Below are positions 3,781 to 31,372 of a DNA stretch of 64,000 nucleotides, piece after piece. The notes beneath the pieces were generated by a model. The model was not told where the DNA came from. It searched no databases and was given only the letters and a program-made list of their open reading frames with translations. Positions within the stretch are counted from its first letter, which is position 1; every line of letters begins with the position of its first letter. Both the position numbers and the translations under genes were made by a program. This stretch comes from Tubulanus polymorphus (taxonomy: Eukaryota > Nemertea > Palaeonemertea > Tubulaniformes > Tubulanidae), in assembly GCF_964204645.1 (NCBI RefSeq), contig NC_134029.1, positions 14,868,850 to 14,932,849 of the forward strand, read 5' to 3'.

Positions 3781-3784
3781 GAGA

Positions 3785-5140: not shown

Positions 5141-5149
5141 CTGCAGTTA

Positions 5150-15165: not shown

Positions 15166-15171
15166 AACCTG
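15166..15171 (+). repeat. Maverick target-site duplication, left copy (AACCTG)
   Basis: AACCTG directly precedes the first base of the left terminal repeat and recurs directly after the right one at 32036-32041. A 6-bp target duplication is the hallmark of Maverick/Polinton integrases. Confidence 0.95.
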
Positions 15172-15512
15172 AGTAATTAGAAGATGGCGTTTTCAGATCA
15201 GAGGTCGAGAGGTCGAGACACCACTCATCACAGCTAGGCTCTAGTGAGAACGGACGATTGCTCTGTGACACACATATACAGTGAGTGCGCGTAACAACAA
15301 CTGCGCGTGGATAGATCGATACAGTGAGTCTCTACTGAGAACGGTTATTAACGCGTGTGCTGTTACTGTAGTACAGTGATTGCGTGTCAACTGTGCCCAG
15401 ATAAATAGATGCTGTGAGGCTTGGGTGAGAACGGTTAATAGCGTGTTTGTTATATACAGGGGGAAGTAATCCCCACTCATCACCACAAGTAATTTTTTTT
15501 CCTTATAAATGG
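15172..15512 (+). repeat. Maverick left terminal inverted repeat (341 bp)
   Basis: It matches the reverse complement of 31695-32035 almost base for base; the differences I noticed are a G/A near 15444 and a T/G in the T-run near 15495. It has internal structure: GAGAACGG recurs at 15246, 15337 and 15427, giving three subunits with a ~90-bp period. The inner edge carries the shared start motif and the first codon of PolB. Confidence 0.95.
15490..15512 (+). promoter_or_regulatory. TAAT-T(n)-TATAAATG start motif, left TIR (PolB)
   Basis: TAAT with a T-run, then CC, then TTATAAATGG, with the ATG at 15509-15511 being the PolB start. Other copies of this ~22-nt motif precede the genes at 22724, 23306, 23749, 24200, 25620, 27099 and 30285, so it is likely a shared promoter core. 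A mirrored copy lies in the right TIR. Confidence 0.75.
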
Positions 15513-16885
15513 AAGAGAATAAGACAGAACAAATTGATGTTAATGAAAATCAATATCATTGTCCATATTGTAAAAAATACATTGATAAATCTCAAAAATC
15601 GCGTCATGAAAAGTCTTCAAATCATATAAAAAATGTAATAGATTTTGAAACTCCAGAAAATTCCAATGAAAGAAAAGAACGATTAGAAAATATGAATGTG
15701 GATGAAATAAAATGTGAAGTTTGTAATGAATTTATAGTAAAAAGGAATTATAATAGACATCTCGAATCACAAAAACACCATCAAAATTTAAGTAATAATG
15801 TTTTAGGAAAAGATTATTTCGATGATAAACCTCAAAAAGTAAAAAAACCAACTTCAAAAACTAAATCCATTTCAAATAAACCTTACATGGAAAATGTTAG
15901 AAATTATATTGATTCACTAGAAATAAAAGATACAATTGAAATTTTAGAAACATTACATAGTAAAATTGGTCCTGCGGCTATTATATTTAGATTCTTTAAA
16001 GGTACAACAATAGAAGATTATAGTAAATTTAATGAAATAATAGAAAAAATACTAGATTTGATAACAGATGTTGAATATCCAAAAATTAGTATCTCTGGGA
16101 AAGTAAGTTTTATAAAGTCAGAAGAAAAAATGAATTATAATATTCAAACACACTCTGAAGAAATAATTTCAAAAACACAAATAAAAGAGAAGTTAGAAAA
16201 AATATTTAATGGATTTAAACGTCATATTGAAGAAAGATATTTTGAGGGTTCTGGCTTAACATTGAATGAAATTATATATTTAGATTTAAATGTTTACAAT
16301 ACAAAAAGAAATAAAACATCAAAAAGTAAAACAATGTTTAAAAATGATTCAAACTTTACAACAAAAAAGGATATTAAAGCATCATCTTATATTAAATTAC
16401 CAATTACGACAAAAGCAGTAATAAATATTCAAAATGAAGATAATAAATGTTTTCTATGGTCAATTATTAGTTGCTTACATCCAACACAGGAAAATGTTTG
16501 TAGAATAACAGATTATCAGAAATATGAAACATTATATAAAATTGATCAATATCCAGTAACTATAAAAATGATACCCAAAATAGAAAAAATTAATAAGTTA
16601 AAAATAAATGTATTCGAATTAATGCAATTACCAAAGACTAAAGGTGAAAATATTAAAGATTATACATTGGAAGCTTTATATTTAACAGAATATTATGATG
16701 ATGAAAATGCTATAGATTTGTTATATTACAAAAAAGATGAAAATGAACATTATATGTGGTTAAAACAAATTGATTTATTCTTTAGAACAGAAAGTGATTT
16801 TAACAGCCATAAAATTTATCTATGTAGAAAATGTTTATCTAAATTTAGAACTGAGAATGCGTTACTAAAACAAAGAATTATGTGA
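15509..16885 (+). CDS. polB: protein-primed DNA polymerase B, N-terminal part (frameshifted)
   Basis: First part of the Maverick replicative polymerase. The ATG lies inside the left TIR in the shared start motif. Two C2H2-like fingers are visible (C18, C21, H33, H39 and C69, C72, H84, H90). A long linker follows, then the EDNKCFLWSIISCLHP segment typical of Maverick PolB N-terminal regions (near residues 310-325). A third CxxC (CRKCLSKF) follows close to the end. The frame ends prematurely: a one-base indel near 16865-16872, in an A-rich run, drops the ribosome into a TGA. The correct frame continues into the piece at 16911, whose first Met is internal. The N-terminal region of such polymerases is thought to include the priming or zinc-binding part (inference). 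Confidence 0.85.
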   Translation: MEENKTEQIDVNENQYHCPYCKKYIDKSQKSRHEKSSNHIKNVIDFETPENSNERKERLENMNVDEIKCEVCNEFIVKRNYNRHLESQKHHQNLSNNVLGKDYFDDKPQKVKKPTSKTKSISNKPYMENVRNYIDSLEIKDTIEILETLHSKIGPAAIIFRFFKGTTIEDYSKFNEIIEKILDLITDVEYPKISISGKVSFIKSEEKMNYNIQTHSEEIISKTQIKEKLEKIFNGFKRHIEERYFEGSGLTLNEIIYLDLNVYNTKRNKTSKSKTMFKNDSNFTTKKDIKASSYIKLPITTKAVINIQNEDNKCFLWSIISCLHPTQENVCRITDYQKYETLYKIDQYPVTIKMIPKIEKINKLKINVFELMQLPKTKGENIKDYTLEALYLTEYYDDENAIDLLYYKKDENEHYMWLKQIDLFFRTESDFNSHKIYLCRKCLSKFRTENALLKQRIM

Positions 16886-16910
16886 TAATAAAGATTTTTG
16901 TAAATTAATA

Positions 16911-17978
16911 ATGCCAACAAAAAAAGATTGTAAGTTGAAATTTACTAATCATAAATTTAAGAATATTGTTCCATTTGTAATTTATGGGGATTTTGAATCA
17001 TTGAATAAAGAATTAACCGATCAAGATAGAAAAGAAATATATAATAAAAAGCAATTATTAAAATCAATGGATAAAGGAAGTGAATTAAATGAAGATATAA
17101 TTCAAGACCCACCAATTATAAATACAATTAAAAAAGTTCATCAAAGAGCTGCTGCTTATGGAATTTATATAAAATCAAATTATCCTGAATTATATGAAAG
17201 TCAATATATTTCTTTTAGAGGTGAAAATGTAGTTAATGATTTTTGTGACAAAATGATTGAATTAGAAAGTGATTTTGCAAAATTATTAAACAAAAATAAA
17301 AGAATAGTTATGACAAAAGAAGATGAAATTGATTTTAATTATGCAACTCATTGTTGTTATTGTGAAAAACGTTTTTATTCATTTGATAAAAAAGTTAGAG
17401 ATCATGATCATTTAAATTCAAAATATCGTGGAGCTGCTCATGAAGATTGCAATTTACAAGCTAAGAAAGTTAATTTCGTACCAATATTATTTCATAATTT
17501 ATCTGGATATGATACCCATCTATTTATAAAACAATTATCGGGAAAATTGGGTGCAATTAATCAAGAAATAGAAGAATATAATGCTATGAATGAAGCAAAT
17601 GTAAGAAAATATGATTTTAAACTATTAGCTAAAACATCTGAAAATTATATTTCATTTCTATTTGGTTGCATTAGATTTTTAGATTCTTATAGATTTCTAG
17701 CAAGTTCATTAGATAATTTATCAAAAAGTTTGGTTGAAAATGATTTTGTTATAACTCGATATTATTATCCAAATGAACAAGATTTTAAATTATTGAGATA
17801 TAAAGGCGCAATTCCTTATTCATTTTATAAAACACATGATGATTTTAATGTAACAGAATTATTAAAAGATCAATTTTATGATCAATTAAAAGAGGAGTAT
17901 GTGAAAGACGAAGTGTTTAATAGAACATTAAATATTTGGAACCATTTTAAGATGAAAAAATCATGGCGAATTAGTTGA
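16911..17978 (+). CDS. polB: DNA polymerase B, 3'-5' exonuclease part (frameshifted)
   Basis: Middle part of the same polymerase. Exonuclease motif I is IYGDFES with D27 and E29 of this piece. A CxxC region (CCYCEKRF) and RDHDHLNSKYRGAAHEDCN follow, the His/Cys-rich segment characteristic of Maverick and related protein-primed PolB. Exo II is HNLSGYDTHLF. The annotated ATG is probably an internal methionine, because coding similarity extends upstream across the indel near 16868. The piece ends at a TGA created by a second indel in the A-run near 17952-17958; the Exo III region (YLKSDV) lies in another frame just beyond it. No full-length product can be made from this copy as sequenced. Confidence 0.85.
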   Translation: MPTKKDCKLKFTNHKFKNIVPFVIYGDFESLNKELTDQDRKEIYNKKQLLKSMDKGSELNEDIIQDPPIINTIKKVHQRAAAYGIYIKSNYPELYESQYISFRGENVVNDFCDKMIELESDFAKLLNKNKRIVMTKEDEIDFNYATHCCYCEKRFYSFDKKVRDHDHLNSKYRGAAHEDCNLQAKKVNFVPILFHNLSGYDTHLFIKQLSGKLGAINQEIEEYNAMNEANVRKYDFKLLAKTSENYISFLFGCIRFLDSYRFLASSLDNLSKSLVENDFVITRYYYPNEQDFKLLRYKGAIPYSFYKTHDDFNVTELLKDQFYDQLKEEYVKDEVFNRTLNIWNHFKMKKSWRIS

Positions 17979-18000
17979 TTTATATTTAAAATCAGATGTT

Positions 18001-20568
18001 ATGATATTGGCTGACATATTTGAAAAATTTAGAGAAGTTAATTTGAATCATTTTAATGTTGATCCTTGTAATTGCTACTCTAGTCCTGGTTTAACCTGGC
18101 AATGTGGTTTAAAATATACAAATGTAGAATTAGATTTATTAAAAGAACCAGATATGGTTTTATTATTTGAAAAATCAATTAGAGGTGGAATTAGTGGTGT
18201 TATGGGAGATAGGTATTTTAAAGCAAATGATGAATATAAATTATTATATATTGACGCCAATAAGTTATATGGTTGGGCAATGATGCAACCTCAACCATAT
18301 AAAAATTTTATATTAACAGAAGTTGAAAATGGTGATAAAACTGATTGGGAAAGCGCAATTGCGAGTTTAAAAGATGAAGCACCAATTGGTTATTTCTTTG
18401 TAGTTGATTTAGAATATCCTGAAAATATAAAGTTTAAAACAAGAAACTTTCCTTATTGCCCAGAACATTTAACTGTAGATGATAGTTATTTAAGTGAATA
18501 CCAGAAGAAAATAAAACCGAAAGATCATGTTTTTACAGAAAAATTAATACTTACTCAAAATAATAAATACAATTATATCGTTCATTATAGAATGTTAAAA
18601 TTTTATCTAAAACAAGGAATGAAATTAAAGAAAGTACATAGATATATTGAATTTAATCAATCGAAGTGGTTAGAAAAATATATAGATTTCAATACTCAAC
18701 AGAGAACCATATCAAAAACAGATTTTGAAAAAGATTTCTTCAAATTAATGAATAATAGTTCTTATGGTAAAACATGTGAAAATATTAGAAATAGAAATGA
18801 TATTGAATTAGTCAATAATTCTGAAAGATTAAGACATTTACAATCAAGTCCTAGACATTTAGGAAATAAAAGATTTGAAGATTATTTAACAGCAGTTAAA
18901 TTAAAAAGAACATCAATGAAATTTAATAAACCTATATTTATTGGTTCGACTGTTTTAGAAGTATCAAAATTATTAATGTATGATTTTTATTATAATGTTT
19001 TACAACCACTTTTTGGGGAAAAGCATATTAAAATATTATATTTTGATTCTGTAACAGCTGACACCCCAATATTATTAAAATGTAATGATAAAATATTGAT
19101 AAGAAGAATTTCAGAAATAATTCCAAAACAAAATGAATGTTATATTTCATATGGAGAAAAAGAATTAATACAAATAAATGGTTTAATGGATGTTTGGACA
19201 AGAAATGGATGGAAAAAATTAAAGAATATTATTAGACATAAAACAAATAAAAAAATCTATAGAGTTAGAACTAAATTAGGATTTGTAGATGTTACAGAAG
19301 ATCATAGTTTAATTAAACGAAATGGCGATGAAATAAAACCAACTGATATAAAAATTGGAGAAGAATTATTGCATAAAAGATTTTTCCAAAGAATGAATCA
19401 TATGTCATTTGATGAAATTATTGATAATATTTATAATATAGAACCCGAAACATTAGAAGAAAAAGAATATTTTATCAAAGGATTTTTCATGGGTGATGGT
19501 TCAGCAGGTGTGTATAATTATGTTTGGGGTAATAAATATTGTTGGTATTTATGCAATCAAGACTTAAAATTATTAGAAAGAATTAAGAAATTCTGTGAAG
19601 AAGTTTATCCAAATAAAACATTTAGAATCATGGATGTTATGAAATCATCAGCAGTTAATAGAATACTTGTAAATAATCCTAAAGATTTTGCTATAAAATA
19701 TAATAATGAATTCTATATTCATGCAATAGTGAAAAGTAATACTTCAACAAAAGAAAAGATAGTTCCAGATTATGTATTAAATGCAAAAAATAATTTAAGA
19801 AAATGGTTCTTCATTGGATTCTATGCAGCAAATGGTGCTAAAAAATTTACAAAAGATAAAAAGATTACCTTTGCACAGAAAGGAAAAGTTGCTATATCAG
19901 GGTTAAATATATTATGTAATTCATTAGGCTTCAATATGAATATTGGATTGATTAAATCTAAACCAAATTGCTTTAATCTAAGCCACACAGAAAAAGATTT
20001 AACTGAAGAGGTTAAAGATTTATTTGAAATATATAACCCATCAGATTATGTTTATGATTTATCAACTGAAGATGGTACATTTAACTGTGGATTTCCATTA
20101 ATTTGCTTCAATACGGATGCGTATATACTAAAAATCAAGACAAATGATATAACAAAAGACTTAAAAACATTAAAACATCATTTTGATTTTAGCAATTATC
20201 CCAAAGATCATGAACTATTTAGCAATGATAATAAAAAGATTCCTGGTAAGTTTAAAGATGAATTAGGGGGTGATGAAATGATTGAATTTGTTGGGATAAG
20301 AAGTAAAATGTATAGTTACAGAACAAAAGATCATGAAGCTAAAAAGTTAAAAGGAATAACAAAACATGTGGTTGATAAACATATAGAATTTCAAGATTAT
20401 ATAAAGTGTTTATATAAATCAATTGTAATGAAACACAAAATGAATTGTTTAAGATCAGAAGATCACGAGATGTACATTAATGAAGTTGAAAAAACTAGTT
20501 TGAATCCATTTGATGATAAAAGGCATATTTTAGATGATGGTATAAAAACATTACCTTATGGCCATTAA
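18001..20568 (+). CDS. polB: DNA polymerase B, palm/thumb part interrupted by an intein
   Basis: Polymerase part of the Maverick PolB. After IRGGISGVMGDRYFKAN comes motif A, YIDANKLYGWAM (D85), then motif B, KLMNNSSYGK (residues 248-257). Motif C is split: YFD ends at residue 349, residues 350-704 are an intein, and TDAYILKIK resumes at 705, so the catalytic DTD is restored only by protein splicing. The C-extein keeps FVGIRSKMYSY and ends LPYGH. The ATG at 18001 is internal; true coding sequence enters from the preceding frame after the indel near 17955. The TAA stop overlaps, on the palindromic TTAA at 20565-20568, the stop of the convergent minus-strand gene. This 855-codon frame has no stop or frameshift. 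Confidence 0.9.
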   Translation: MILADIFEKFREVNLNHFNVDPCNCYSSPGLTWQCGLKYTNVELDLLKEPDMVLLFEKSIRGGISGVMGDRYFKANDEYKLLYIDANKLYGWAMMQPQPYKNFILTEVENGDKTDWESAIASLKDEAPIGYFFVVDLEYPENIKFKTRNFPYCPEHLTVDDSYLSEYQKKIKPKDHVFTEKLILTQNNKYNYIVHYRMLKFYLKQGMKLKKVHRYIEFNQSKWLEKYIDFNTQQRTISKTDFEKDFFKLMNNSSYGKTCENIRNRNDIELVNNSERLRHLQSSPRHLGNKRFEDYLTAVKLKRTSMKFNKPIFIGSTVLEVSKLLMYDFYYNVLQPLFGEKHIKILYFDSVTADTPILLKCNDKILIRRISEIIPKQNECYISYGEKELIQINGLMDVWTRNGWKKLKNIIRHKTNKKIYRVRTKLGFVDVTEDHSLIKRNGDEIKPTDIKIGEELLHKRFFQRMNHMSFDEIIDNIYNIEPETLEEKEYFIKGFFMGDGSAGVYNYVWGNKYCWYLCNQDLKLLERIKKFCEEVYPNKTFRIMDVMKSSAVNRILVNNPKDFAIKYNNEFYIHAIVKSNTSTKEKIVPDYVLNAKNNLRKWFFIGFYAANGAKKFTKDKKITFAQKGKVAISGLNILCNSLGFNMNIGLIKSKPNCFNLSHTEKDLTEEVKDLFEIYNPSDYVYDLSTEDGTFNCGFPLICFNTDAYILKIKTNDITKDLKTLKHHFDFSNYPKDHELFSNDNKKIPGKFKDELGGDEMIEFVGIRSKMYSYRTKDHEAKKLKGITKHVVDKHIEFQDYIKCLYKSIVMKHKMNCLRSEDHEMYINEVEKTSLNPFDDKRHILDDGIKTLPYGH
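19048..20112 (+). other. intein (355 aa) in PolB motif C, with LAGLIDADG-type endonuclease domain
   Basis: In frame inside PolB, between D349 and T705 of the 18001 piece. Block A is SVTADTPILL with Ser1 as nucleophile. Block B is VDVTEDHSLIKR with the TxxH pair at intein positions 83 and 86. Blocks F and G are YVYDLSTEDGTFNCG and LICFN, ending in Asn355 and followed by Thr+1. LAGLIDADG-like motif 1 is FIKGFFMGDGS (Asp at intein 150); motif 2 is FFIGFYAANGA (Asn at intein 262 where an acidic residue is usual). The penultimate residue is Phe instead of the common His, a variation known in some active inteins. Length fits a full intein with endonuclease. The motif C site matches that of PolB inteins in some giant viruses (family knowledge). 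Splicing activity is inferred, not shown. Confidence 0.93.
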
Positions 20569-21881
20569 AACATAAAATCAATATCATCATACTCGAAATC
20601 ACTATTGGCTTCTTCATTTTCATTTAATTGTTCAGGTTCTTCTTCCATTCCATTTTTCTCATTTAAATAAAGTTCTATCTTGTTCCACATTTCATCTCGC
20701 TCTCTTTGTTTCTTTTTGTTTGTTAATTCGTCAAATGGAATTATAATATCTAGGTTTAAATAATTTACAATCTTATTTAAAAAGAATTCATAATTTATTG
20801 AATCTGTTATTCTATTTTCCAAATGATACATTAATATTTGTTTGAATATTTTTTTTATATTTTCCATATCTTCTTCTGTTAATTTAGGTTTTTCATAATA
20901 ATCGTTAAATAATAAATATAAATACATTTTCTTTTCTTTTGTGTTAAATGTTGGCGGAATAATTGTTTTTATAATATCTTTTTTAGTTATTTCACCATTT
21001 TCATTTTCTATTATTTTCATTTTTTCAAGCCATTGCATATATTCTGGTGTATGATCTTCCATAGAAAATATTTTAAAAATTTCATCTAGATAATTCAATT
21101 TTGGATCTATGAGAAAATCTCTAGTTTTTTCTTCACCCAATAAATTCTTTTGCCATCCACATTCATTCCAAAATATCACAGGACCTTCTTGTCTTAAGTA
21201 CTCATAAATACATTGTGGGCATTTTTTTCTATCATAGCTTGGTGATAGATCTTCATTAAGCTCTTGGTATTTTCTTACGTTTTCTTTATGTTTTATTGTT
21301 CTATTATGTAGATTTGAATTACTTGTTGTAATAATCAATTTACAATATTTACAATAATATGTTTTTCTTGTTAATTCATTATATTGTTTTTCTAACTTTT
21401 CAACTGTTTCTTCATTATCTGGTAACGTTTTCTCATAATTTATTTTTTCTAATAAATTATTTTTTCTTTCATTAAATTCAGTTTCAAATTAATAATAAAT
21501 TTTATCTATATGTACTTCACGAAATTGATGATTCTCCGAATCTTCTATATTTTCAGGGCTATATTTTATTCGACAAGGCTCGCAGAAATGATCTTTTATC
21601 TAATCCTTATCATAGAATAAGAAAGGTCTTTTCCAAATAACTTCAGGTTCAACTTCAGCAGAATTACTATTACTTTCATTACTATCAACATTAGCCGTTG
21701 CGCCGTTAATTCTACACTTCTCTGAATGTTTTTTAACATAATTTCTTGAGAATAATTTATTACATTTTGGGCAGTTTATTTTAGGGGGTTTATAATTTTC
21801 ATCATGTTTTTTCATATGTCGTGCCATATTACTTTTTCTTAGAAGTTCACCACAAATTTCGCATGCTATCTTCTCATCCAT
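20565..21881 (-). pseudogene. Maverick multi-zinc-finger protein, two in-frame stops
   Basis: One reading frame runs from ATG 21881 to the stop at 20565 (~438 codons) but is broken by TAG at 21602-21600 and TAA at 21491-21489; all parts share the same frame. The first 93 codons encode two fingers (CEICGELLRKSNMARHMKKH and CPKCNKLFSRNYVKKHSEKC). The middle has CEPCRIKY and YYCKYCKLIITTSNSNLHN. The last 257 codons include CPQCIYEYLRQEGPVIFWNE and an acidic tail. It could be two genes, but frame continuity and spaced CxxC motifs favour one. A TAAATAAATG start context with an upstream A+T-rich run resembles the shared motif. It converges on PolB with overlapping stop codons. Function unknown; nucleic-acid binding is inferred from the fingers. 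Confidence 0.7.
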
Positions 21882-21926
21882 TTATTTAGGAAAATTTTAT
21901 TAAAATTAATTTTTAGTGATGAGCGG

Positions 21927-21951
21927 TAATTTTTTTATGTTATAAATAGTG
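21927..21951 (+). promoter_or_regulatory. shared start motif with damaged ATG (penton gene)
   Basis: TAAT, a T-run, ATG, then TTATAAATAGTGG. The motif core is intact but the expected TATAAATG reads TATAAATAGTG, so the start codon is lost. Elsewhere in the element the motif ends exactly in ATG. Confidence 0.6.
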
Positions 21952-22707
21952 GTAGAATTAAAAGAATACAGAATATTTGTTGATTCTAGAAAACTTACAA
22001 ATTATAAATCAGATAATTTACTAGTACAATTAGATAGAGAATTTAAGAATTGTGTAGATTTAAAATTAGTTAATATAAGTTTATGTAACTCATTTTACAA
22101 TATATCGGATAAAAGTCTAGAACATTTAATTTTTTCAATCTTTTACAATAAAAGGAATAAATGTTTTTTTATATATTTAAAACCAGGATTATATAATTTA
22201 GATACATTAACACAAGAAATTAATAGAAAAGCTCGAGCTAAATTAGGAAGTGATTCCGGATTTAGTATTAGAATTTTAAAAAGTGATAGTTCTAATAAAA
22301 TAAAGATTAGGTTAGCTAATGACGAACAATTTAAATTTACAGTAAGAAAACCTTTAGGTAAACTGTTAGGAATTAACCCAGATATTGTTACAGCATACGC
22401 AGAAGGTAGATCAAACTTAATACCTTTTACACATTTTTATATTTATTGCAATTTGATTGACCCAACAAAAACATTTGAAGCAACTAAAGATACAATTTGT
22501 AATTCTGGTTTATTAAATATTTTACCATTAAAAAATGTCAAACAATTTGGAACTCAAATAAATTATAATTTAACTGAATGTGATTTCAAACCTTGTATTC
22601 CACATTTCAATAATTTTAAATTAGAAATAAGAAATCATAATGGATATTTAATTGATTTGTATAACTTTCCTGTAATTTATGAATTAGTTATAAGATGTAA
22701 AGAGTAA
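21949..22707 (+). CDS. probable Maverick minor capsid (penton) protein
   Basis: A 252-codon frame opening at GTG because the expected ATG of the start motif is missing. The layout fits Maverick penton proteins: an N-terminal YRIFVDSRKLTN segment, a FKNCVDLKLVNISLCNSFYNI strand region (quoted in part: VDLKLVNISLCNSFYNI), then FIYLKPGLYNLDTLTQEIN, the 'PGxYxxxxLxxEIN' pattern seen in single-jelly-roll minor capsid proteins of polinton-like viruses. Length (~250 aa) is right. No membrane segment. It precedes the small membrane proteins and lies 4.4 kb upstream of MCP. The assignment rests on pattern and length; a structure prediction would be decisive. Whether it is translated is uncertain because of the start. 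Confidence 0.6.
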   Translation: MVELKEYRIFVDSRKLTNYKSDNLLVQLDREFKNCVDLKLVNISLCNSFYNISDKSLEHLIFSIFYNKRNKCFFIYLKPGLYNLDTLTQEINRKARAKLGSDSGFSIRILKSDSSNKIKIRLANDEQFKFTVRKPLGKLLGINPDIVTAYAEGRSNLIPFTHFYIYCNLIDPTKTFEATKDTICNSGLLNILPLKNVKQFGTQINYNLTECDFKPCIPHFNNFKLEIRNHNGYLIDLYNFPVIYELVIRCKE

Positions 22708-22726
22708 TTTTTTCATTATATAAATG
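22705..22726 (+). promoter_or_regulatory. shared start motif before ORF 22724
   Basis: TAATTTTTT, CA, TTATATAAATG. It overlaps the TAA stop of the preceding penton frame (22705-22707), so gene end and promoter share bases. Confidence 0.75.
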
Positions 22727-23080
22727 AATATAACTGTTGGACCGAGTATATGTTTTGGGTTTGATTTTAAACGTGAGAAAGAAATGAAATTTAATATGAA
22801 TGATGTAATTACACATATCAAAAATATTGCATTTTCTAATGAAACAACATTTGAGTATGAAACAACAATAGATAAAGAAACTTTAAATGTAGAAAAGATT
22901 ACTAATTTAATTAGAGAATCTTTAAGATTTTATGAATTAGATGAAGATTTTATCATCGATGATATTAAAAAAGTAATAATTGAAATATATGATAATCATA
23001 AAACTAGTAATGAAATAAATGTTGAATTAATCATAAATAAGTTAACTAAATATTTTGAAGATAGTAATTTTTTTGATTAA
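22724..23080 (+). CDS. small Maverick protein of unknown function (118 aa)
   Basis: Starts at the ATG of a shared start motif. The protein is acidic and predicted largely helical, with no membrane segment, cysteine cluster or recognised motif. Its C-terminal codons (DSNFFD and stop) are written in the T-run of the next start motif at 23065, so its end overlaps the next gene's promoter. I do not recognise a family. Confidence 0.65.
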   Translation: MNITVGPSICFGFDFKREKEMKFNMNDVITHIKNIAFSNETTFEYETTIDKETLNVEKITNLIRESLRFYELDEDFIIDDIKKVIIEIYDNHKTSNEINVELIINKLTKYFEDSNFFD

Positions 23081-23086
23081 TAAATT
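23065..23086 (+). promoter_or_regulatory. shared start motif with ATG changed to ATT
   Basis: TAATTTTTTT, GA, TTAATAAATT: all motif elements are present, but the final G of ATG is T. The reading frame behind it is open and hydrophobic, suggesting a start lost by one substitution. Confidence 0.65.
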
Positions 23087-23281
23087 AGTGATAATAAGTG
23101 GATAATAACTGGATTATATAATGGAGCATTACTATCAGTTGGAACTGTTGGTTATTCAATGGTATTAAAAAAAGTATTCAAAATGGGAAGTGTTAATGTT
23201 GATAGATTAACATTAGCAGTTACTTTATCTAATTTAACTATTGATTATTTAGAAACACAGAAATATATTCCTCCCATATAA
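23084..23281 (+). pseudogene. small hydrophobic Maverick protein, start codon lost (65 codons)
   Basis: Behind the damaged start motif an open frame of 65 codons runs to TAA at 23279-23281. It begins ISDNKWIITGLYNGALLSVG and contains one likely membrane segment (GALLSVGTVGYSMVL) followed by a basic KKVFKMG segment. Position among other small membrane-protein genes and the motif placement support a real gene whose ATG became ATT. No intact ATG opens this frame near the start. Family not recognised. Confidence 0.5.
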
Positions 23282-23286
23282 ATACA

Positions 23287-23308
23287 TAATTTTTTTGCTA
23301 AATAAATG
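23287..23308 (+). promoter_or_regulatory. shared start motif before ORF 23306
   Basis: TAATTTTTTT, GC, TAAATAAATG, immediately after the stop of the preceding small gene. Confidence 0.75.
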
Positions 23309-23728
23309 GCTTCTGCAATTATAACTATTATAGGATCTGCAATTGTTAACGCTTTGGCATTTACTGGTGGTGGTTATTTATTTAAACATATTGATAAAAA
23401 TAGTTCATTAGGAGAACAAAGAAGACATAACTTAGCGTTAGAGAAATATAATAAAGCTGCAGAAGAATATAGAGAAAAGAGGCAAAACTATATGGATTAC
23501 ATCAATAAAGAATTATATGATCAGAAGATTTCACATAGAGATTTTCAATCAGTTGATGATGCAATGAGTTTATATAACGCGGTAACCAATAAAGAAAAAT
23601 TACATCTATACAAACCTAAATTATCAGATTATTATACCCCGAGTAAAGAACAACAGAAATATGAAATAATATGGATTTTAGGTGGAACTTTTATTGTTAT
23701 ATTTGTAGCATATAAATTTACTAATTAG
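23306..23728 (+). CDS. conserved Maverick membrane protein (140 aa)
   Basis: ATG in the shared start motif. A small-residue-rich hydrophobic N-terminus (AIITIIGSAIVNALAFTGGG) is followed by a charged helical middle (LALEKYNKAAEEYREKRQNY), a KLSDYYTPS segment, and a C-terminal membrane segment (IIWILGGTFIVIFVAYKF). From memory this architecture recurs as an unassigned ORF in Maverick elements of other animals. Role unknown; a virion or membrane protein is inferred from two hydrophobic ends and position in the structural gene cluster. Frame intact. Confidence 0.75.
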   Translation: MASAIITIIGSAIVNALAFTGGGYLFKHIDKNSSLGEQRRHNLALEKYNKAAEEYREKRQNYMDYINKELYDQKISHRDFQSVDDAMSLYNAVTNKEKLHLYKPKLSDYYTPSKEQQKYEIIWILGGTFIVIFVAYKFTN

Positions 23729-23751
23729 TAATTTTTTTTGCTAAATAAATG
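23729..23751 (+). promoter_or_regulatory. shared start motif before ORF 23749
   Basis: TAATTTTTTTT, GC, TAAATAAATG, starting one base after the stop of the preceding gene. Confidence 0.75.
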
Positions 23752-24183
23752 GAAGATAAAGTTGATAGTATTGATATTATTCCTCATGATATAAATAAAA
23801 CTAAATTAAAAACATATTTAGAAAAAGAAATATTAGAATTTGAAAGTGACTTAAAAGTTAAAAAGAAAAAATATCTAAAAAGTAAAATTATATATTATTT
23901 GATTATAAGTGGTTCGGTTACAATTAGTTCTGTAATAACATTTCTAGCAATATTCAGTCCATTAACACCTTTAGCTATATCAATTGGTGTGTTAGGATTA
24001 AGTTCAAGTGTTTTAACCGGTATAAGTTCAAAATTAAATATAAAAAGTAATAAAGAAAAAATTAAAACTAATATAAAAGAAATTAATAAATTAAAGAACA
24101 CACTAGATTATATAATAAGTTTAAATGGCCATATAACAGTTGAAGAACAAGATAAATTATTAAAAGAATTAATAAATTATTAA
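23749..24183 (+). CDS. Maverick membrane protein with flanking coiled-coil segments (144 aa)
   Basis: ATG in the shared start motif. A charged N-terminal helix (LEKEILEFESDLKVKKKKY) leads into a long hydrophobic region likely to form two membrane passes (IIYYLIISGSVTISSVITFL and PLAISIGVLGLSSSVLTGI), followed by a second charged helix. Its TAA stop is the first three bases of the next start motif. No family recognised beyond the general pattern of small Maverick membrane proteins. Confidence 0.7.
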   Translation: MEDKVDSIDIIPHDINKTKLKTYLEKEILEFESDLKVKKKKYLKSKIIYYLIISGSVTISSVITFLAIFSPLTPLAISIGVLGLSSSVLTGISSKLNIKSNKEKIKTNIKEINKLKNTLDYIISLNGHITVEEQDKLLKELINY

Positions 24184-24202
24184 TTTTTTAATTATATAAA
24201 TG
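24181..24202 (+). promoter_or_regulatory. shared start motif before ORF 24200
   Basis: TAATTTTTTA, AT, TATATAAATG. The leading TAA is the stop codon of the preceding gene. Confidence 0.75.
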
Positions 24203-25603
24203 GTAGATAGTTTTCCAAAAGCTTTCCAATATAATAAATCAATTAAATATAATATTCCAGCAATAGATTTTAATAAAGATATTACATATAGAAATGAAGT
24301 TTTAGATTCATTAACTAATTTAGAAATTTATGTTACTGAAACTAACAATTTTAATGCAAAGATGGAAAATATATTTCATGTTTATTTAATTGATTTTAAA
24401 AAATTGAAAGATGAAAAACAATGGTTATTAAAATCTAATATGAGGTATTGGCAGAACCAATTAAATTTTGCTGTTTATTGTGCAACAACAGGTTGTGGAA
24501 TTAGTTGGAATGATCATTTGAATAATTCTAAATATAAATTAATTCAAAGTTTATTTAGATTTCATACATACTTTCAAATCAGAATAATATTAAATGAATT
24601 AGAGTGCGCTTTACCAGGATCAAGATATTTTAAAGAATTAGATAATAATATTAATTTATCTAAGTTTTATAAAATTTGCAATGAATTTAATATAGATATA
24701 AATAATTCTGATTTTAGAACAAAAATTGGAACAATAAGATCACTTCCTTGCCCTAAAAAGGTTGCAGAATATTGTGCACTTCCCATACCATCTAATAGTT
24801 TTTATAATATCTATAATAATAAATTAGGTTATGGTAAAATAGAAACTAAGGATTTAGAAACATTAAATTTCAATAAATTACCGAAATCTTATGATAATTT
24901 AAAACAATAATGGTTGGGTTTATTTTATTTTAGAAAATAGTGAAGGTTTTACTAAATCAGGTATAGAAAGAATAAATCAATCTATTAGAACTTATTTGAT
25001 TTGTATTCTAGGATCACAAGTTGAAACAAGATCACCGATAATTGGAAATTTGAATACATCATTCGATACACAAAAACAATTTAAAGTATTATTTGAAGAT
25101 TCCATACATAATGATAAAAATAGATCGATTCCAGAAAACATATAGATATCAAAATTATTTAGATAAATCACATATTAGATTAAATTATTGTATAGGCCCT
25201 AATCTATTAATTATTTCTAATGATTTAGTATTAAAGATGGGAAATATAATTGGTTATAATAATCTAATTAAAACTGCGACAATAAATAATTCATTTGGAT
25301 TAAATGATATAAATAAAAAGATTATAACTGCTCCAAAATTAATGGAAGGTGAAAAAAATAAAAAACATTCAATCAACAGAAACTAAAACTAAGAATATTA
25401 AATTGGATAATGATTCCAAAATAAAAAATTACAATACTGCAGAAAATGGTGCCGTCCGGCACCCACACGGTGATATTAAAACTGATAATATTCAACATGA
25501 TATAATTAAAACTGATAATGACAATAAATTACATGAAAATACTAAATTAGCTTTAACTTGTATAGGAATTGTTATAGGAGGAATATTATATTTTAAATTT
25601 TAA
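24200..25603 (+). pseudogene. large conserved Maverick protein with C-terminal membrane anchor, frameshifted
   Basis: The first 236 codons are open and contain RYWQNQLNFAVYCATTGCGI, LFRFHTYFQIR and ALPGSRY, patterns I recall from a conserved, unassigned Maverick ORF. The frame breaks at a TAA (24908-24910). Coding character resumes in another frame (WVYFILENSEGFTKSGIERI, SIRTYLICILGSQVETRSPI), shifts again near 25120-25140 into the 25093 frame (GPNLLIISNDLVLKMG), and again in the A-run near 25350 into the 25349 frame. The last piece ends with LALTCIGIVIGGILYFKF, a single membrane anchor. Together this is about 467 codons with three frameshifts. Function unknown; virion association is inferred from position between membrane proteins and MCP. 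Confidence 0.7.
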
Positions 25604-25622
25604 TTTTTTTATTATATAAATG
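25601..25622 (+). promoter_or_regulatory. shared start motif before ORF 25620
   Basis: TAATTTTTTT, AT, TATATAAATG. Its TAA is the stop codon of the preceding frame (25601-25603). Confidence 0.75.
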
Positions 25623-27074
25623 GATGTAGAAGGTGGAGAAGATATTGGAATGGATCCTTTTGATGAACCTGGTATAACTGATGAACAACCACCTGATTTT
25701 GATGAAACAACTTTTAATGATGGTAATGAGCCAGAATATAATAATAATTTAAATATGCCTGATTATATTAGAAATGCAGAATCACAATTAAATCCTGAAA
25801 ATTTAGACCCAGGTTTAGTAAAACAAGATTTAGATAATTTAAACAAAATAGCTAAATTAGAAGATATAATTAAAAAATCTAAACTTAACATAAATGATGA
25901 AGACGTTGGACCTTTAGTAGATAAATTAAGATTTTTAGATAATGGTAAATGTTATTATCATTTGAAAGGTGATTATTATATTGATATCACTTATAAACGT
26001 GAAAAGAAAATATTATCAGAATCAACTTTAGAAAAATTAGAACCAGATAGAATTAAAAGAATAAGTAATAGTAATGAAATAACTGATGTTACACAAAAAG
26101 AAAGAGATGATAATATAGACGTATTTAAACAAAGAATTAATGAATTATTTGAAATAATCAAAAAGAAATCAGAAACAGAAACAACTTCTGAACAGAATAT
26201 AACTTCCAAAAATAGTAAACTTAAATCAAATAAAGTTCCAATTGAAAAACTTTTACCGAATGGATTAATTGATGCAACAGATCAAGAATTAGAAGATTTA
26301 GATATATTTTCTGATAAAGCAATTAGAGAAATTATTAGTATAAGACTTGCATCTAATAAAATTGCGCATGATAAAAGTATAAGAGATTTTAAAATTAGAA
26401 CTTTAGAAAAAGAATTAACTGATAAAAATAAAGAAATAGAACAATTAAAGTCTGATTTAGATCATCAAGTAATTGATGAAATAGAATATAGGCAAAAAGA
26501 ATTACGTTTAGAAAAAGAAAAAGATGATTTAGAATATAACATAGAATTACAAAAAGAAGAAATTAAATTATTATTAAAATCATATGATTATAATATTAAT
26601 AGATTAAAAGTTATTTTTAAAGATTTGTTGATGAAACCAGATTCTGAAATATCATTGAAAGATAGAATAAAATTGTTATTTAAATTAGAAGGAATAACAA
26701 TTCTTTCAATTCTAACAGCTGTAACTATGTTATTTACAACAATTGGTTTAGCAATATCAAATGCTTTGAAATCTACACCTACTCTCAATAAACCGGATAA
26801 ACCCCCGAATGATAATAATTCTATACAAGATAAAGTTAAAGATGGTTTTAAGAAATTAGCAAAATATTTATGGGAACTATCTAAAAAATCTGCTGCAGCT
26901 TTACCTGGAGTTATTGCATCAATTGTTGGTTTTATATTGAAATCTGCTGGGAATATTCTTAACTTTGCTGCTGAACATATTATTTTATTTTTAATCACAG
27001 TTGTAAGTGCTATTATTTTTTGGTTAGTAAATATGATATCAAAAAGATATCAAGAAAAAAATAATAAAGAATAA
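25620..27074 (+). CDS. Maverick coiled-coil/membrane protein (484 aa)
   Basis: Intact frame opening at the shared start motif. Residues 1-60 are acidic and Pro-rich. A long helical, charged middle (roughly residues 160-330, e.g. LEKELTDKNKEIEQLKSDLD) predicts coiled coil. The C-terminal third has a hydrophobic segment (ILSILTAVTMLFTTIGLAI), a Pro-rich linker (LNKPDKPPNDNN), an Ala/Gly-rich helix (KKSAAALPGVIASIVGFIL) and a final membrane segment (IILFLITVVSAIIFWLV). The C-terminal arrangement recurs, as I recall, in an unassigned ORF of many Mavericks. It directly precedes MCP. A membrane-associated structural role is inference. Confidence 0.75.
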   Translation: MDVEGGEDIGMDPFDEPGITDEQPPDFDETTFNDGNEPEYNNNLNMPDYIRNAESQLNPENLDPGLVKQDLDNLNKIAKLEDIIKKSKLNINDEDVGPLVDKLRFLDNGKCYYHLKGDYYIDITYKREKKILSESTLEKLEPDRIKRISNSNEITDVTQKERDDNIDVFKQRINELFEIIKKKSETETTSEQNITSKNSKLKSNKVPIEKLLPNGLIDATDQELEDLDIFSDKAIREIISIRLASNKIAHDKSIRDFKIRTLEKELTDKNKEIEQLKSDLDHQVIDEIEYRQKELRLEKEKDDLEYNIELQKEEIKLLLKSYDYNINRLKVIFKDLLMKPDSEISLKDRIKLLFKLEGITILSILTAVTMLFTTIGLAISNALKSTPTLNKPDKPPNDNNSIQDKVKDGFKKLAKYLWELSKKSAAALPGVIASIVGFILKSAGNILNFAAEHIILFLITVVSAIIFWLVNMISKRYQEKNNKE

Positions 27075-27079
27075 ATAAT

Positions 27080-27101
27080 TAATTTTTTTGTTTAATAAAT
27101 G
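27080..27101 (+). promoter_or_regulatory. shared start motif before MCP
   Basis: TAATTTTTTT, GT, TTAATAAATG; the ATG at 27099-27101 opens the major capsid frame. Confidence 0.75.
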
Positions 27102-28352
27102 AGTGGGAGTTATATAAGTCCTTCTAAGATTTCTAGAATATCTAATGCTATTAAAGCAGAAAGATCACATCGTATAATTACTCATAACCCTTCAAATATT
27201 AATCTGAAATATTAATATGAAACTTTATATGTTAGAATTCCTAGATTAACACAAAATACTTTTTATGTTCCAAATAGTATTTATTTATCAGCCGATATAA
27301 AAGTAACTGGCCATGATAACAATTATGTTGTTGATAATGTTGGAAGATATTTGATTAAAAAATTAACTATAAAGATTGGTCCGGAAACAGTTTTCTCATT
27401 AGATGATTATAATTTATTTATGCATTATAAAGATTTATGGTTAACTAAAGAAAATAGAAATAATATGATATTTCAAGGCATCCAATCGGAAAACCATAAT
27501 AAATTAAGATCAGGAGCTAATGACGCAATAGTAACTCGTGCCACAGATAATTTGATTAAAAAGATTTATGGAAGCAAATATAAAATTCCATTAGATTTTG
27601 AATTGATAAATAATAATGCACCTTTATATAAATACGCAATTCAAGAAGATATTATATTTGAGATAACATTTGCTCCTGTAAATGAAATTGTATTATCTAG
27701 CGTTGTTAAAGATATGAGTTATAAATTATCGAATATATGTTTAGAATATGATACAGTAACTGATGAAAATATTTCAAGTATAATTCAAACTCAATACAAT
27801 CAAGGATTTTCATTATTATATGATTATATTGATAAATTTAAAACTGTAACTATTATTGCAATGATGAAATAATTAATGAGAATATTAACTTCCCAAGAAG
27901 ATCTATTAAAGGTATATTAATATTTTTTACTATTGCAACATTCTAATGGTGCAATAAAGGTAGATAATTATTATAATCCTGAAATAACAAAAGTAGAAAT
28001 AACTATCGAAGGAATAGCAAATAAAATATTTTGCCAAGGAATGAGAATGATAGATCAGTGGCCAGAAATTAGAAAACATTTTATGAATGAAAAAGTAAAA
28101 TCATTTGAAAATTGTAATATTAATCAAATTGATTATTATACCGGCAATAAATATGCATTATGGTTAGATTTTAGAACAACAGAGGATAATTCATTACATG
28201 GTTCTGGAAAAAAACTACAGAACACTAAAGATGGAATACAATTATTCATGAAAAAGAAAAAAGGAAGCTTAAATTTTAAAATGCATATTTATATTATATC
28301 TGACGCGCAATTAAATATTGTAAATTCACAATTAGATAGTATTCAATATTAG
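27099..28352 (+). pseudogene. mcp: Maverick major capsid protein (double jelly roll), broken
   Basis: The frame opens at the shared start motif (MSGSYISPSKISRI) and hits an in-frame TAA at codon 39 (27213-27215), directly before YETLYVRIPRLTQNTFYVP, the conserved N-terminal region of Maverick MCP. The same frame stays open to 27872 with NVGRYLIKKLTIKIG, YNLFMHYKDLWL, IQSENHNKLRSG, YGSKYKIPL and YKLSNICLEYDTV. Frameshifts near 27868 and 27925 move the code to the 27933 frame, which holds IEGIANKIFCQGM, YALWLDFRTTEDNSLHGSG and the C-terminal IYIISDAQLNIVNSQ. Family and order of motifs are clear; about 418 codons in total is somewhat short. As sequenced no full capsid protein can be made. Confidence 0.88.
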
Positions 28353-28363
28353 AAATATAAAGT

Positions 28364-28385
28364 TAAAATTAAGGATATATAAATG
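28364..28385 (+). promoter_or_regulatory. TATATAAATG start motif before integrase (T-run lacking)
   Basis: TAAAATTAAGG then ATATATAAATGG: the core with the ATG is kept, but the T-run seen at most other genes is absent. Confidence 0.55.
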
Positions 28386-29510
28386 GGTGGTAAAAAAACT
28401 CCTAATACTAAAGAACAATATTTAAGAAATTTATATTACAACCCTGAGAGTTCGGTTGCTTATTCTTCTACTTAAAATATATGGCGTAAAGTAAAACAAG
28501 ATAAATTAGATAAGATAATCCCACAAAATTTAGTTAAATATAAAGATATAAATGAATTTATGTTAGAACAACCAACATATACAACACATAAAAAAATTGT
28601 TAGAAAATATAAAACTCGTAAAACTATGGTAAGTTATGTAGATCAACAGTGGCAAGGAGATTTAATTGATATGAAAAATGTTAAGAAAGATAATGATGAT
28701 TATTGGTGGTTATTGAATATAATTGATATTTTTAGTCGTTTTGTATGGAGCTTCCCACTTTATAGAAAAGATGCTGTACAAACATCAAATGTTTTAAGAA
28801 AATTTCTTTCGGATGATAAACTAAAACCAGAAAAAATACAATTTGATGATGGAAAAGAGTTTGATGATTCACTTGTTCATGAACTCTTAGATAATCATAA
28901 TATTGAATATTTTTCAACAAAATCGGATAAAAAAGCAGCAGTTGTTGAACGATTTAATAGAACATTAAGAACAAGAATGTGGAAATATTTTACAGCAAAT
29001 AATACTTTAAAATGGATTGATGTTTTACCAAAATTGATAGAAGGATATAATAATTCTTATCATTCTTCTATTGGAATGAAACCTATTGATGCTAGAAAAC
29101 CTGAAAATGCTGAAATTGTTTGGAATAATTTATATGGAGCATTTCTTGTAGATGATTTTGGTGAACCTAAATTTAAAGTTGGTCAAAATGTTAGAATTTC
29201 TAAGTATAAAAAGATATTTGATAAAGGATACGATCGAAATTTTACTAGAGAAATATATAAAATAAAAAAGGTAATAACAACAAAACCATATGTCTATAAA
29301 TTAGAAGATTTAGATGGTGAAGAAGTTGATGGCTACTTTTACGAAGAAGAATTGAGTTTAACTACCGAAAATCTAGAACAAGAATATAAAATTGAAAAAG
29401 TATTAAAAACAAAAACTATTAAATAAAAAAAATATTCTTTAGTAAAATGGGTTGGATGGCCAGATAAATTCAATGAATGGATATTGTCAAGTAAAATTAA
29501 AAATATATAA
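28383..29510 (+). pseudogene. int: Maverick DDE integrase with C-terminal chromodomain, broken
   Basis: Retrovirus-like integrase that would insert the element. ATG at 28383 opens MGGKKTPNTKEQYLRNLYY; codon 31 is an in-frame TAA (28473-28475). The same frame continues through IWRKVKQDKLDKII to the rve core: WQGDLIDM (D34 of the frame counted from 28560), IQFDDGKEF (D96) and AAVVERFNRTLR (E130), then YNNSYHSSIGMKPIDA. After 29426 the frame stops in an A-run, and VKWVGWPDKFNEWILSSKI, a chromodomain end, follows in another frame to a TAA at 29508-29510 that abuts the next ATG. Both lesions would prevent a complete enzyme. The chromodomain probably influences target choice (family knowledge). Confidence 0.9.
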
Positions 29511-29513
29511 ATG
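29493..29513 (+). promoter_or_regulatory. TATATAAATG start motif before ATPase
   Basis: AAAATTAAAA then ATATATAAATG; the TAA within it is also the stop of the chromodomain frame. T-run absent, as at the integrase. Confidence 0.55.
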
Positions 29514-30119
29514 AATAAGGAATTATTTATATTTGAACCTCATAATATGTTAATTTCTGGTGTATCAAATTGTGGAAAAACTTATTTTATGTTAAATTTA
29601 TTAGAAACTGTTTATGAAAACTATTTTGATAATATAGTATTATTTTGCCCAACATATGAATTTAATCAAACTTATGATAGAAATATTACTAGGAATAATA
29701 AATTTATTATATTAGATCCTAAAACAGTAAAAGAAAACTTAGATAATTGTATTAAAATAGCAATTGATATTTATAAAGGATCAAATACATTATTCATTAT
29801 AGATGATTGCGCAAATTTACATGATTCAAAAGTTAGAGAAAGTGAGTTATGTTATTTAGCTTTCTCCGGGAGACATTTCGGGATAACAACTTGGGTTTTA
29901 AATCAAAAATATAATTCAATTGTTAAAGACTTTAGAGAAAACATTAGATTTCTAGTTTTATTCTACAATAAAGATAGAAAATCGATGAAAAATGCACTTG
30001 AGGAAAATGATATTATTCCACATGATTTACATAATGAATATATGGATAAGTTGAAAAATATTAAAAGATCAAAATTACTATTTAGATTACAACACCCATT
30101 TAAATATGAATTTATTTAG
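29511..30119 (+). CDS. atp: A32-like genome-packaging ATPase (FtsK/HerA superfamily)
   Basis: Intact 202-codon frame. Walker A is SGVSNCGKTYF (G17 to T24), and Walker B is TLFIIDDCA (about residues 91-99). The LAFSGRHFGITTWVLNQKY segment fits the sensor region that follows Walker B in Maverick and NCLDV A32-type ATPases. Length is close to the usual ~200-230. Such ATPases drive genome packaging into the capsid (family knowledge). Its presence with MCP and a probable penton supports a virus-like lifestyle in the ancestor of this copy. The TAA of the upstream integrase directly abuts its ATG. Confidence 0.92.
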   Translation: MNKELFIFEPHNMLISGVSNCGKTYFMLNLLETVYENYFDNIVLFCPTYEFNQTYDRNITRNNKFIILDPKTVKENLDNCIKIAIDIYKGSNTLFIIDDCANLHDSKVRESELCYLAFSGRHFGITTWVLNQKYNSIVKDFRENIRFLVLFYNKDRKSMKNALEENDIIPHDLHNEYMDKLKNIKRSKLLFRLQHPFKYEFI

Positions 30120-30265
30120 ATTCAATTAGTTTGTTAATCTAGTTGAATTCTAGTTATTGGTAGTTGTAACAAAAATCAAATAGATTTAACAATATTTTAA
30201 CTAGCTTGTTAATCTAGTTGAATTCTAGTTACATTCTAGTTGAATTCTAGTTGCAACATCACAAC
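30120..30265 (+). repeat. intergenic array of CTAGTTGAATTCTAGTT direct repeats
   Basis: This is one of the few non-coding gaps in the element. CTAGTTGAATTCTAGTT occurs at least three times (near 30139, 30216 and 30237) with TCTAGTT half-copies between. The unit is partly self-complementary (CTAG...GAATTC...CTAG), so local hairpins are possible. Function unknown; termination, replication or recombination are all speculation. Confidence 0.65.
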
Positions 30266-30287
30266 TAATTTTTTTGTTATATAAATG
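30266..30287 (+). promoter_or_regulatory. shared start motif before ORF 30285
   Basis: TAATTTTTTT, GT, TATATAAATG; ATG at 30285-30287. Confidence 0.75.
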
Positions 30288-30890
30288 GTAGGTGAAAAGA
30301 AAATAAAATCTAAAAATGGTGATGTTCCAATTGATAAAACTTTAGATGATTTAGGAATAACAGAAAACAAATTAACTCCAGATAATTGTGCTTTAAATAA
30401 TGTTACAACAAATAATAATTATGAATATTATCTTTATTGCAAACATCAATTAGAAATATTAATAGCATCTGGAAAATGTAAAAAATTTGTCGATAAAAAT
30501 TTAACTTATAATGAATTAGATACAATGAAATCAGTTGAAATTATTAGATTATTTAAGATTTATGAAGCCGCGAGAACAGCTAAAATTAAAGACGCGATAT
30601 CAGAAAATGTAGTAAAAGGTTATAGTAAATTATGTAATTATATACTACCAATTGAAGATGAAAATAGATTATATTCCGATTTAAAAAATTATTATTTAGT
30701 TATGACTGAATTAAATAAATGGATTGGATATTTATCGTTTCAATTAGGAGGATTTATGACATTATTATCAACTGGGGTTATAACATTTTCAAATATTGAA
30801 AGTAAAAATATTTCTATAATAAATGAGCGAGGTGAAAGAAGTGAAGGAATTAACTGTGAAGAAAAAACCGAGAACTCAGAAACAAATTGA
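30285..30890 (+). CDS. conserved Maverick protein of unknown function (201 aa)
   Basis: Intact frame at the shared start motif. The middle has VKGYSKLCNYILPIEDENRL and the C-terminal part WIGYLSFQLGGFMTLLSTGV, a pattern I recall from an unassigned Maverick ORF. No catalytic motif is visible; one hydrophobic segment (GGFMTLLSTGVITF) may be membrane-associated or core. Its last 23 codons overlap, in another frame, the start of the next ORF at 30823. Confidence 0.65.
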   Translation: MVGEKKIKSKNGDVPIDKTLDDLGITENKLTPDNCALNNVTTNNNYEYYLYCKHQLEILIASGKCKKFVDKNLTYNELDTMKSVEIIRLFKIYEAARTAKIKDAISENVVKGYSKLCNYILPIEDENRLYSDLKNYYLVMTELNKWIGYLSFQLGGFMTLLSTGVITFSNIESKNISIINERGERSEGINCEEKTENSETN

Positions 30891-31191
30891 ATGGTCTCGG
30901 CAATTAGGAATTAAATCACAAGAATATAAAAAAGCTGAAAAAGAAAAAATAAATAATAAAAATGTTAATAAAAATGGTGAAAATATTGTTATTTCTACTC
31001 CTTCTGATAATATAATATTTGATAAATATTTATATTTTACAGTTGGATTTGTAATTGTATTCATTTTGATTGGGTGTAATTGGTATAAGAAATCAAATAA
31101 AATTCATGATATTAATAATTCTGAAACAACTGCTATCAAAAGTGAAAATAATTCTGAAATTCCAAAATTGATAATAAAAAAAATGGATTAA
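30823..31191 (+). CDS. small Maverick single-pass membrane protein (122 aa)
   Basis: ATG at 30823 lies in a TATAATAAATG context inside the end of the preceding ORF (68-bp overlap). The N-terminal half is strongly basic (VKKKPRTQKQIEWSRQLGIK), followed by one clear membrane segment (YLYFTVGFVIVFILIGCNWY) and a polar tail. The topology suggests a tail- or signal-anchored virion or membrane protein. Family not recognised. Confidence 0.65.
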   Translation: MSEVKEVKELTVKKKPRTQKQIEWSRQLGIKSQEYKKAEKEKINNKNVNKNGENIVISTPSDNIIFDKYLYFTVGFVIVFILIGCNWYKKSNKIHDINNSETTAIKSENNSEIPKLIIKKMD

Positions 31192-31372
31192 TATTTTAGA
31201 AAAAAAGCAAAAAAAAATAATTTTTTTAAATTAATTGAATATCTCACTACTTTTGTCTATCACTGTGTGGGTGCCGTTTATGGCACCATCTATGCGGAGC
31301 AATTAAATTGTCCAGATAAGTCATTTCGGATTCTAGATATTCATTATTTTTATTAATTTATTTTTTTTAAAT
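31192..31372. other. A+T-rich gap between convergent Maverick genes
   Basis: No gene. It contains a 24-bp stretch that is unusually G+C-rich for this element, including GGGTGCCG and GGCACC, which can pair as GGTGCC/GGCACC around TTTAT (31271-31287). A terminator-like or structural role for the convergent genes on either side is possible. Confidence 0.4.

Follow-up and report, generated by a model that had tools for sequence, protein, structure and literature searches.

Polinton protein-primed PolB polymerases (pPolBs) hold homing endonuclease domains at different positions according to PMC11071308, which suggests intein invasions of these proteins. Homing enzymes of the GIY-YIG and HNH types occur in polinton-like viruses, as described in PMC12220804, and inteins are rare in animals (PMC5784728). 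The locus described here lies in a 64,000-nucleotide stretch of the genome of the nemertean Tubulanus polymorphus (GCF_964204645.1, contig NC_134029.1, positions 14,868,850 to 14,932,849; hereafter the window), in the polymerase gene of a Maverick/Polinton element at 15172–32035. A 355-residue insert, almost certainly an intein, splits motif C of this polymerase, and it is polymorphic, being both present and absent in one element family within one genome.

Anatomy of the intein

The open reading frame (ORF) at 18001–20568 reads ...ILYFD / SVTADTPILL...CGFPLICFN / TDAY... across the two borders of the insert, with 355 codons between them, and the in-frame interruption of YFD / TDA at 19048–20112 that an earlier note on this DNA had reported is thus read directly from the ORF. 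Conservation was assessed in an alignment of 80 other copies from the genome to the window ORF, which with the window gives 81 copies in 88 rows, seven copies being counted twice. The parts of the ORF, all on the plus strand, are as follows.

18001–19047, plus strand: N-extein, ending ...ILYFD (motif C), placed by flank alignment to homologues
19048–20112, plus strand: intein of 355 amino acids, Hint splicing domain and LAGLIDADG endonuclease, placed by profiles, structure match and copy alignment
19048–19050, plus strand: Ser1, the first intein residue, Ser in 88/88 rows
19294–19305, plus strand: block B, TEDH (TxxH), T in 88/88 and H in 87/88 rows
19480–19500, plus strand: first LAGLIDADG-type motif, GFFMGDG, Asp in 86/88 rows
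19816–19836, plus strand: second LAGLIDADG-type motif, GFYAANG in the window copy and GFYAADG in most open copies, Asp in 85/88 rows
20110–20112, plus strand: terminal Asn of the intein (Asn704), Asn in 83/88 rows
20113–20568, plus strand: C-extein, opening with Thr-Asp (second half of motif C) and including the stop, placed by flank alignment and C-extein search

The splicing residues are kept in most rows, with Thr+1 in 87/88 rows alongside Ser1, TxxH and the terminal Asn. The intein profile search proposed in the earlier note agrees: TIGR01445, which describes the N-terminal region of inteins, scores 29 bits with the whole ORF and 30.9 bits with the insert alone against a cut-off of 24.5, and 30.2, 30.8 and 32.7 bits in three other copies of the genome. 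The window insert matches PF14890 with an expect value (E) of 1.2e-6 and a score below the gathering score of 35.8, which is reached by its relative P0001 (42.4 bits); it also matches PDB entry 2cw7 (E 1.2e-6). A structural match to the Hint fold covers ORF residues 350..704, the whole intein, in a predicted model based on alignment A4 with a mean predicted local distance difference test score (pLDDT) of 64.5 and intein block means of 51–93, most of them above 69. The fold predicted from the single sequence is uninformative (mean pLDDT 35.3), and a search of alignment A3 against solved structures returned nothing useful. Collectively, Ser1, TEDH, the terminal Asn and Thr+1, together with the profile and structural matches, bear out the intein identity that the earlier note had proposed.

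The two LAGLIDADG-like motifs named in the same note are both present, and both carry the acidic residue in the family; in the window copy, however, the second has Asn in place of Asp. Across the 88 rows this position is D in 85, N in one (the window only), E in one and H in one. An endonuclease dead in the whole family, which the window's Asn had suggested, is not upheld, as that Asn is private to the window copy. The window copy itself is a decaying, non-working carrier, with the polymerase in three frames and one endonuclease Asp changed to Asn, and because of the split over three frames it makes no whole polymerase. Polymerase activity would depend on splicing, as the earlier note held.

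Filled and empty copies within the genome

Genome searches scored the best candidates only, and all copy counts are therefore lower bounds. With the 855-residue ORF as query, the best 53 of 2492 candidates were scored, and 53/53 cover the intein at 93–100% identity; 11 of the 53 lie in an open frame of 1686–1690 amino acids, stop-free in the match, so an intact gene would appear to consist of a single long frame. With the intein alone, the best 114 of 621 candidates scored are 88–100% identical, and these matches, in at least 114 places and many of them broken, lie mostly on twelve chromosome-sized contigs. The insert is found in many other copies, and a private oddity of the window copy is accordingly rejected.

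The exteins were also searched apart, scoring the best 116 of 1875 candidates for the N-extein and the best 150 of 1425 for the C-extein. Pairing by position joins 89 of the 116 N-extein matches to a scored C-extein and leaves 27 unpaired. The gap between paired exteins is 931–1077 bases in 79 cases, 775 in one and 0–3 in nine. In each of the nine empty copies the exteins meet precisely at the border: YFD runs into TDS or TDA in eight of them and into IDA in the ninth, with extein DNA 95.0–98.4% identical to the window. These exact joins place the presence and the absence of the intein in the same element family. The intein-plus and intein-minus Maverick copies for which the earlier note had proposed a search thus occur side by side in one genome.

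Relatives and movement between polymerase lineages

When the protein search is confined to the intein, it returns 182 proteins, 120 of them listed. Among the matches listed, the closest over the full length are P0001–P0004 and P0006, Maverick polymerases interrupted at the same point; the other extracted intein rows are mostly PF00136 polymerases reading YGD / S...N / TDS. The search restricted to the N-extein yields 6732 proteins among 7994 candidates scored, again with 120 listed, and the closest relative among these, P0121, is 85% identical and empty at the site. In the 113 relatives in which both flank matches reach the site, 111 have zero residues there and two have 347 and 348; P0003, P0004 and P0006 bear the intein, with flank matches that stop short of the site, and stand outside the 113. 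The insert is thus not a normal part of intein-free Maverick polymerases.

The intein tree was built from 60 of the 76 rows, 16 having been dropped by length, and in it six Maverick inteins group together within the PolB inteins as a single clade (support 100). The branch that joins them to the nearest group, made up of motif C inteins from PF00136 polymerases, has a Shimodaira–Hasegawa-like approximate likelihood ratio test (SH-aLRT) value of only 93. The N-extein tree has 51 rows, nine of them intein-bearing, drawn as a sample from the 125 proteins whose N-extein was usable, with the window added. Its intein-bearing rows are scattered, requiring seven changes, of which at least three are forced by well supported branches; the meeting of P0004 with P0167 in this tree carries a long-branch warning. 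A single clade of intein-bearing polymerases is rejected by the approximately unbiased test (p-AU 1.2e-7) in a set of 19 rows, five with intein, from which P0004, P0005, P0034 and P0221 were left out. The Maverick inteins form one clade and their polymerases do not, and hence the intein moves between polymerase lineages; with the nine natural empty sites, this tree mismatch upholds the mobility proposed earlier. On the sampled sequences, the intein probably entered Maverick polymerases once and then moved among them, and the large-virus donor that the earlier note raised as possible would be compatible with the intein tree. A later search returns Maverick intein fragments up to 73% identical to that of the window; P0245, which matches the window at 86% identity in its C-extein and 73% in its intein, is closer than the rows in the trees.

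In IMG/VR, no relatives are found for three queries, nor for P0009 from the nearest non-Maverick intein group. Alignment A2 brings up two viral contigs (L089, L090), 28% identical across the intein region with its borders. On L089, the polymerase ORF at 2408–5764 carries an insert at YGD / TDS, and the gene next to it resembles ribonucleotide reductase by eye. Related polymerases are also encoded on ten contigs that were binned with bacterial genomes, one of which (L100) covers residues 1–273 only; match lengths suggest that the nine site-spanning polymerases on these contigs are without intein. The same intein type is also seen in an ADP-ribosylglycohydrolase at GGD / TDT (P0020), and related inteins occur in topoisomerase/gyrase-type proteins at DQD / TDG (P0050, P0054, P0055, P0112), a D / TD insertion site being common to unrelated proteins.

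Selection and recombination among copies

Singleton variants in the copy alignment are almost neutral, with omega values of 0.67 in the N-extein, 0.84 in the intein and 0.59 in the C-extein, with 24, 26 and 8 stops, respectively. Among variants shared by more than five copies, the corresponding values are 0.03, 0.16 and 0.07, and stops are absent. For the endonuclease part alone, omega is 0.17 for common variants and 1.00 for singletons. The simplest reading is purifying selection on both splicing and endonuclease functions in the elements that spread, followed by decay after insertion.

Differentiation between plus and minus copies, expressed as an Fst-like fixation index, is highest near the site: it is 0.22–0.46 in bins within 150 bases of the site, except for 0.11 at -150 to -75; further out it is 0.27–0.29 to 600 bases on the left and 0.06–0.14 beyond, on either side. 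Permutation places the strongest plus/minus differences beside the site (0/500 on both sides), with differences still present at greater distance (6/500 and 2/500). Silent diversity is raised next to the insertion site and over the C-terminal third of the intein (window ORF codons 251–349 and 601–754): it is 0.086–0.18 in codons 301–349, 601–704 and 705–754 and 0.095 in codons 251–300, with 0.024–0.063 in the other bins. Two copies differ on average by 6.2% in the intein, against 3.9 and 3.7% in the exteins, and the correlation of intein with N-extein distances is weak (0.22). For variants less than 100 bases apart, the squared correlation (r2) is 0.022 across the right border, 0.14 across the left border and 0.13–0.23 within regions, the within-region mean dropping to 0.04–0.07 at 100–300 bases. 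All four gametes are present in 43% of close site pairs, rising to 91% of distant pairs. Judged by this linkage among common variants, the dispersed copies (L009–L088 and window 18001–20568) behave as though they were a recombining population, with exchange perhaps taking place during replication as free DNA. The patterns around the site fit exchange from diverged donors, a correspondence that is suggestive only.

Proposed mechanism and alternative explanations

We consider it likely that the insert is an intein of the PolB-c type at motif C, with a LAGLIDADG homing endonuclease, in a Maverick protein-primed PolB, and that the full cycle, present or recent homing included, operates as follows. 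The polymerase gene would be translated through the intein as one long protein, from which the Hint domain, using Ser1, the block B TxxH, the terminal Asn and Thr+1, would excise itself and join YFD to TD. The rejoined motif C would bring the catalytic aspartates side by side and restore the polymerase. The endonuclease would cut the conserved motif C DNA of intein-free polymerase genes in co-replicating or neighbouring Mavericks, and repair from a filled copy would write the intein into the cut site, presumably while the copies replicate together. The anatomy, the exact empty sites, the selection on both parts in the variants that spread and the passage between polymerase lineages are demonstrated. 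Splicing and cleavage are ascribed here by analogy with characterised members of the family. The wider proposition, that an actively homing intein is spreading through virus-like elements in an animal germ line before fixation, with the empty copies as targets not yet reached and with hops between Maverick lineages of different hosts, we regard as evenly balanced.

Several observations weigh against the homing interpretation. The related P0001 scores only 22 bits for TIGR01445, under the cut-off, and PF14890 gives 25.0–34.4 bits (E 2.3e-8 to 1.9e-5) in the four copies scanned, under its gathering score. The penultimate His is never seen in the 88 rows, where K, F or V stands in the copies and F in the window; such a His in block G is usual for inteins and not strict, and in related polymerase inteins K, S, V, Y and F also occur before the terminal Asn. 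Many copies are dead, open inteins being found in 43/81 copies when read directly and in 24/81 by the alignment-based count. The 79 filled copies were classed by gap length and not opened singly, the ratio of plus to minus copies is possibly biased by best-candidate scoring, and the minus copies number only nine. The omega counts combine the variants of all copies, frame-shifted ones included, and use no tree. In addition, a scan in 250-base windows finds no breakpoint peculiar to the intein borders, and with free recombination everywhere the patterns around the site are not proof of homing tracts.

One alternative is a relic intein, which still splices but whose endonuclease no longer homes, the mixture of filled and empty sites being old inheritance shuffled by recombination. 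Such a history would accommodate the Asn of the window copy's second motif, the presence of the insert in most paired copies and the strong recombination among copies, with r2 decaying within 100–300 bases and four gametes in 43–91% of site pairs; it sits poorly with the catalytic Asp kept in 86/88 and 85/88 rows, the endonuclease omega of 0.17 for common variants and the conflict between intein and polymerase trees across distant Mavericks, and we hold it to be unlikely. A Hint-type autoprocessing domain, as in Hedgehog or bacterial intein-like (BIL) domains, would cleave without ligation and leave two polymerase pieces, an outcome that we rate as very improbable. An ordinary polymerase insertion or assembly contamination draws on nothing beyond the rarity of inteins in animals (PMC5784728), and its probability is negligible: the 111 of 113 homologues without the insert, the nine exact empty copies and the Hint structural match refute it, and contamination is further countered by the position of most scored intein matches on the twelve chromosome-sized contigs and by the Wnt exons on the window's contig.

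Under the homing interpretation, the co-occurrence of occupied and unoccupied sites, together with the silent and replacement differences among about 80 copies, would make a homing cycle datable and testable without laboratory evolution. The data suggest that an intein can persist in a polymerase active site through many rounds of transposition in an animal; if the proposal is true, a selfish protein is nested here in a selfish element that itself resides in an animal.

The Maverick element and its contig

The window is part of a 24.9 Mb contig in an assembly of 267.8 Mb and 77 contigs. An AT-rich block at 15172–32035 (about 23% G+C versus about 37% in the surroundings) coincides with the element, whose features are listed below.

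15166–15171, unstranded: left target-site duplication AACCTG, read from the sequence, the same six bases as at 32036–32041
15172–15516, plus strand: left terminal inverted repeat, 345 bp, 99% complementary to the right arm
15509–16885, plus strand: polymerase ORF piece 1, N-terminal part with a zinc-finger-like start, by eye like the start of P0122
16911–17978, plus strand: polymerase ORF piece 2, in another frame, with weak Endonuclease_7 similarity below cut-off
18001–20568, plus strand: polymerase ORF piece 3, 855 amino acids, containing the intein, from the ORF list and genome search
20565–21338, minus strand: VLTF3-like protein (PF04947, 26.1 bits, cut-off 25)
21949–22707, plus strand: weakly DUF5901-like protein (18.9 bits against a cut-off of 26.4, E 7.8e-4)
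28560–29426, plus strand: retroviral-type integrase, rve (PF00665, 40.7 bits, cut-off 32.6)
29511–30119, plus strand: A32-type packaging ATPase (PF04665, 51.3 bits, cut-off 22.8)
31691–32035, minus strand: right terminal inverted repeat, pairing with the left 345-bp arm
32036–32041, unstranded: right target-site duplication AACCTG, matching the left copy

The terminal inverted repeats, the 6-bp duplication, the rve integrase, the A32-type ATPase and a PolB recognised by homology identify the element as a Maverick/Polinton, as the earlier note had stated; PF03175 (DNA_pol_B_2) is matched by two of the six homologues of the window polymerase that were scanned. Capsid and cysteine protease have no clear Pfam match among the other ORFs scanned. 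The claim of an animal genome is likewise confirmed, with 39 Wnt exon matches at about 11 loci in the assembly, the window's own 24.9 Mb contig among their carriers, and none in 14 control genomes. A search for COX1 gives no match in the assembly. A reverse transcriptase ORF on the minus strand at 59976–60854 (RVT_1, E 1.3e-19) probably belongs to an unrelated retroelement, and weak tissue factor matches in the window scans are taken as chance.

Comparison with known systems

Our literature search, which did not extend to the adintovirus paper or to Jeong et al. 2023, reportedly the source for the homing endonuclease domains of polinton pPolBs, found no intein with splicing motifs in a metazoan Maverick. 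Nor did it meet filled and empty copies within one genome, or the selection pattern described above. The earlier note knew of no described case in a metazoan Maverick, a statement to be softened in view of the intein invasion that PMC11071308 suggests for polinton pPolBs, the same class of host protein as that of the window intein. The GIY-YIG and HNH enzymes of polinton-like viruses (PMC12220804) are of another type than the window's LAGLIDADG enzyme.

The motif C inteins of PF00136 PolB proteins (YGD / S...N / TDS; P0007 and others) share with the window intein the insertion point, Ser1, Thr+1 and the combination of Hint and LAGLIDADG domains, at about 29–41% identity in rows covering the whole intein; their hosts carry PF00136/PF03104, whereas the window's host is a Maverick polymerase whose homologues match PF03175. 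PI-PkoII (2cw7), an archaeal polymerase intein, is 537 residues long against 355 in the window and 21% identical. The inteins of other Mavericks (P0001–P0006, P0034, P0040, P0241, P0243–P0246 and P0248) occupy the same site where a border is present and are 40–73% identical in the matched stretches, many of them being fragments. Intein invasion of polinton polymerases is thus a kind already known, and what this locus adds to the literature searched is the polymorphism within one genome, the splicing motifs in an animal genome and the pattern of selection.
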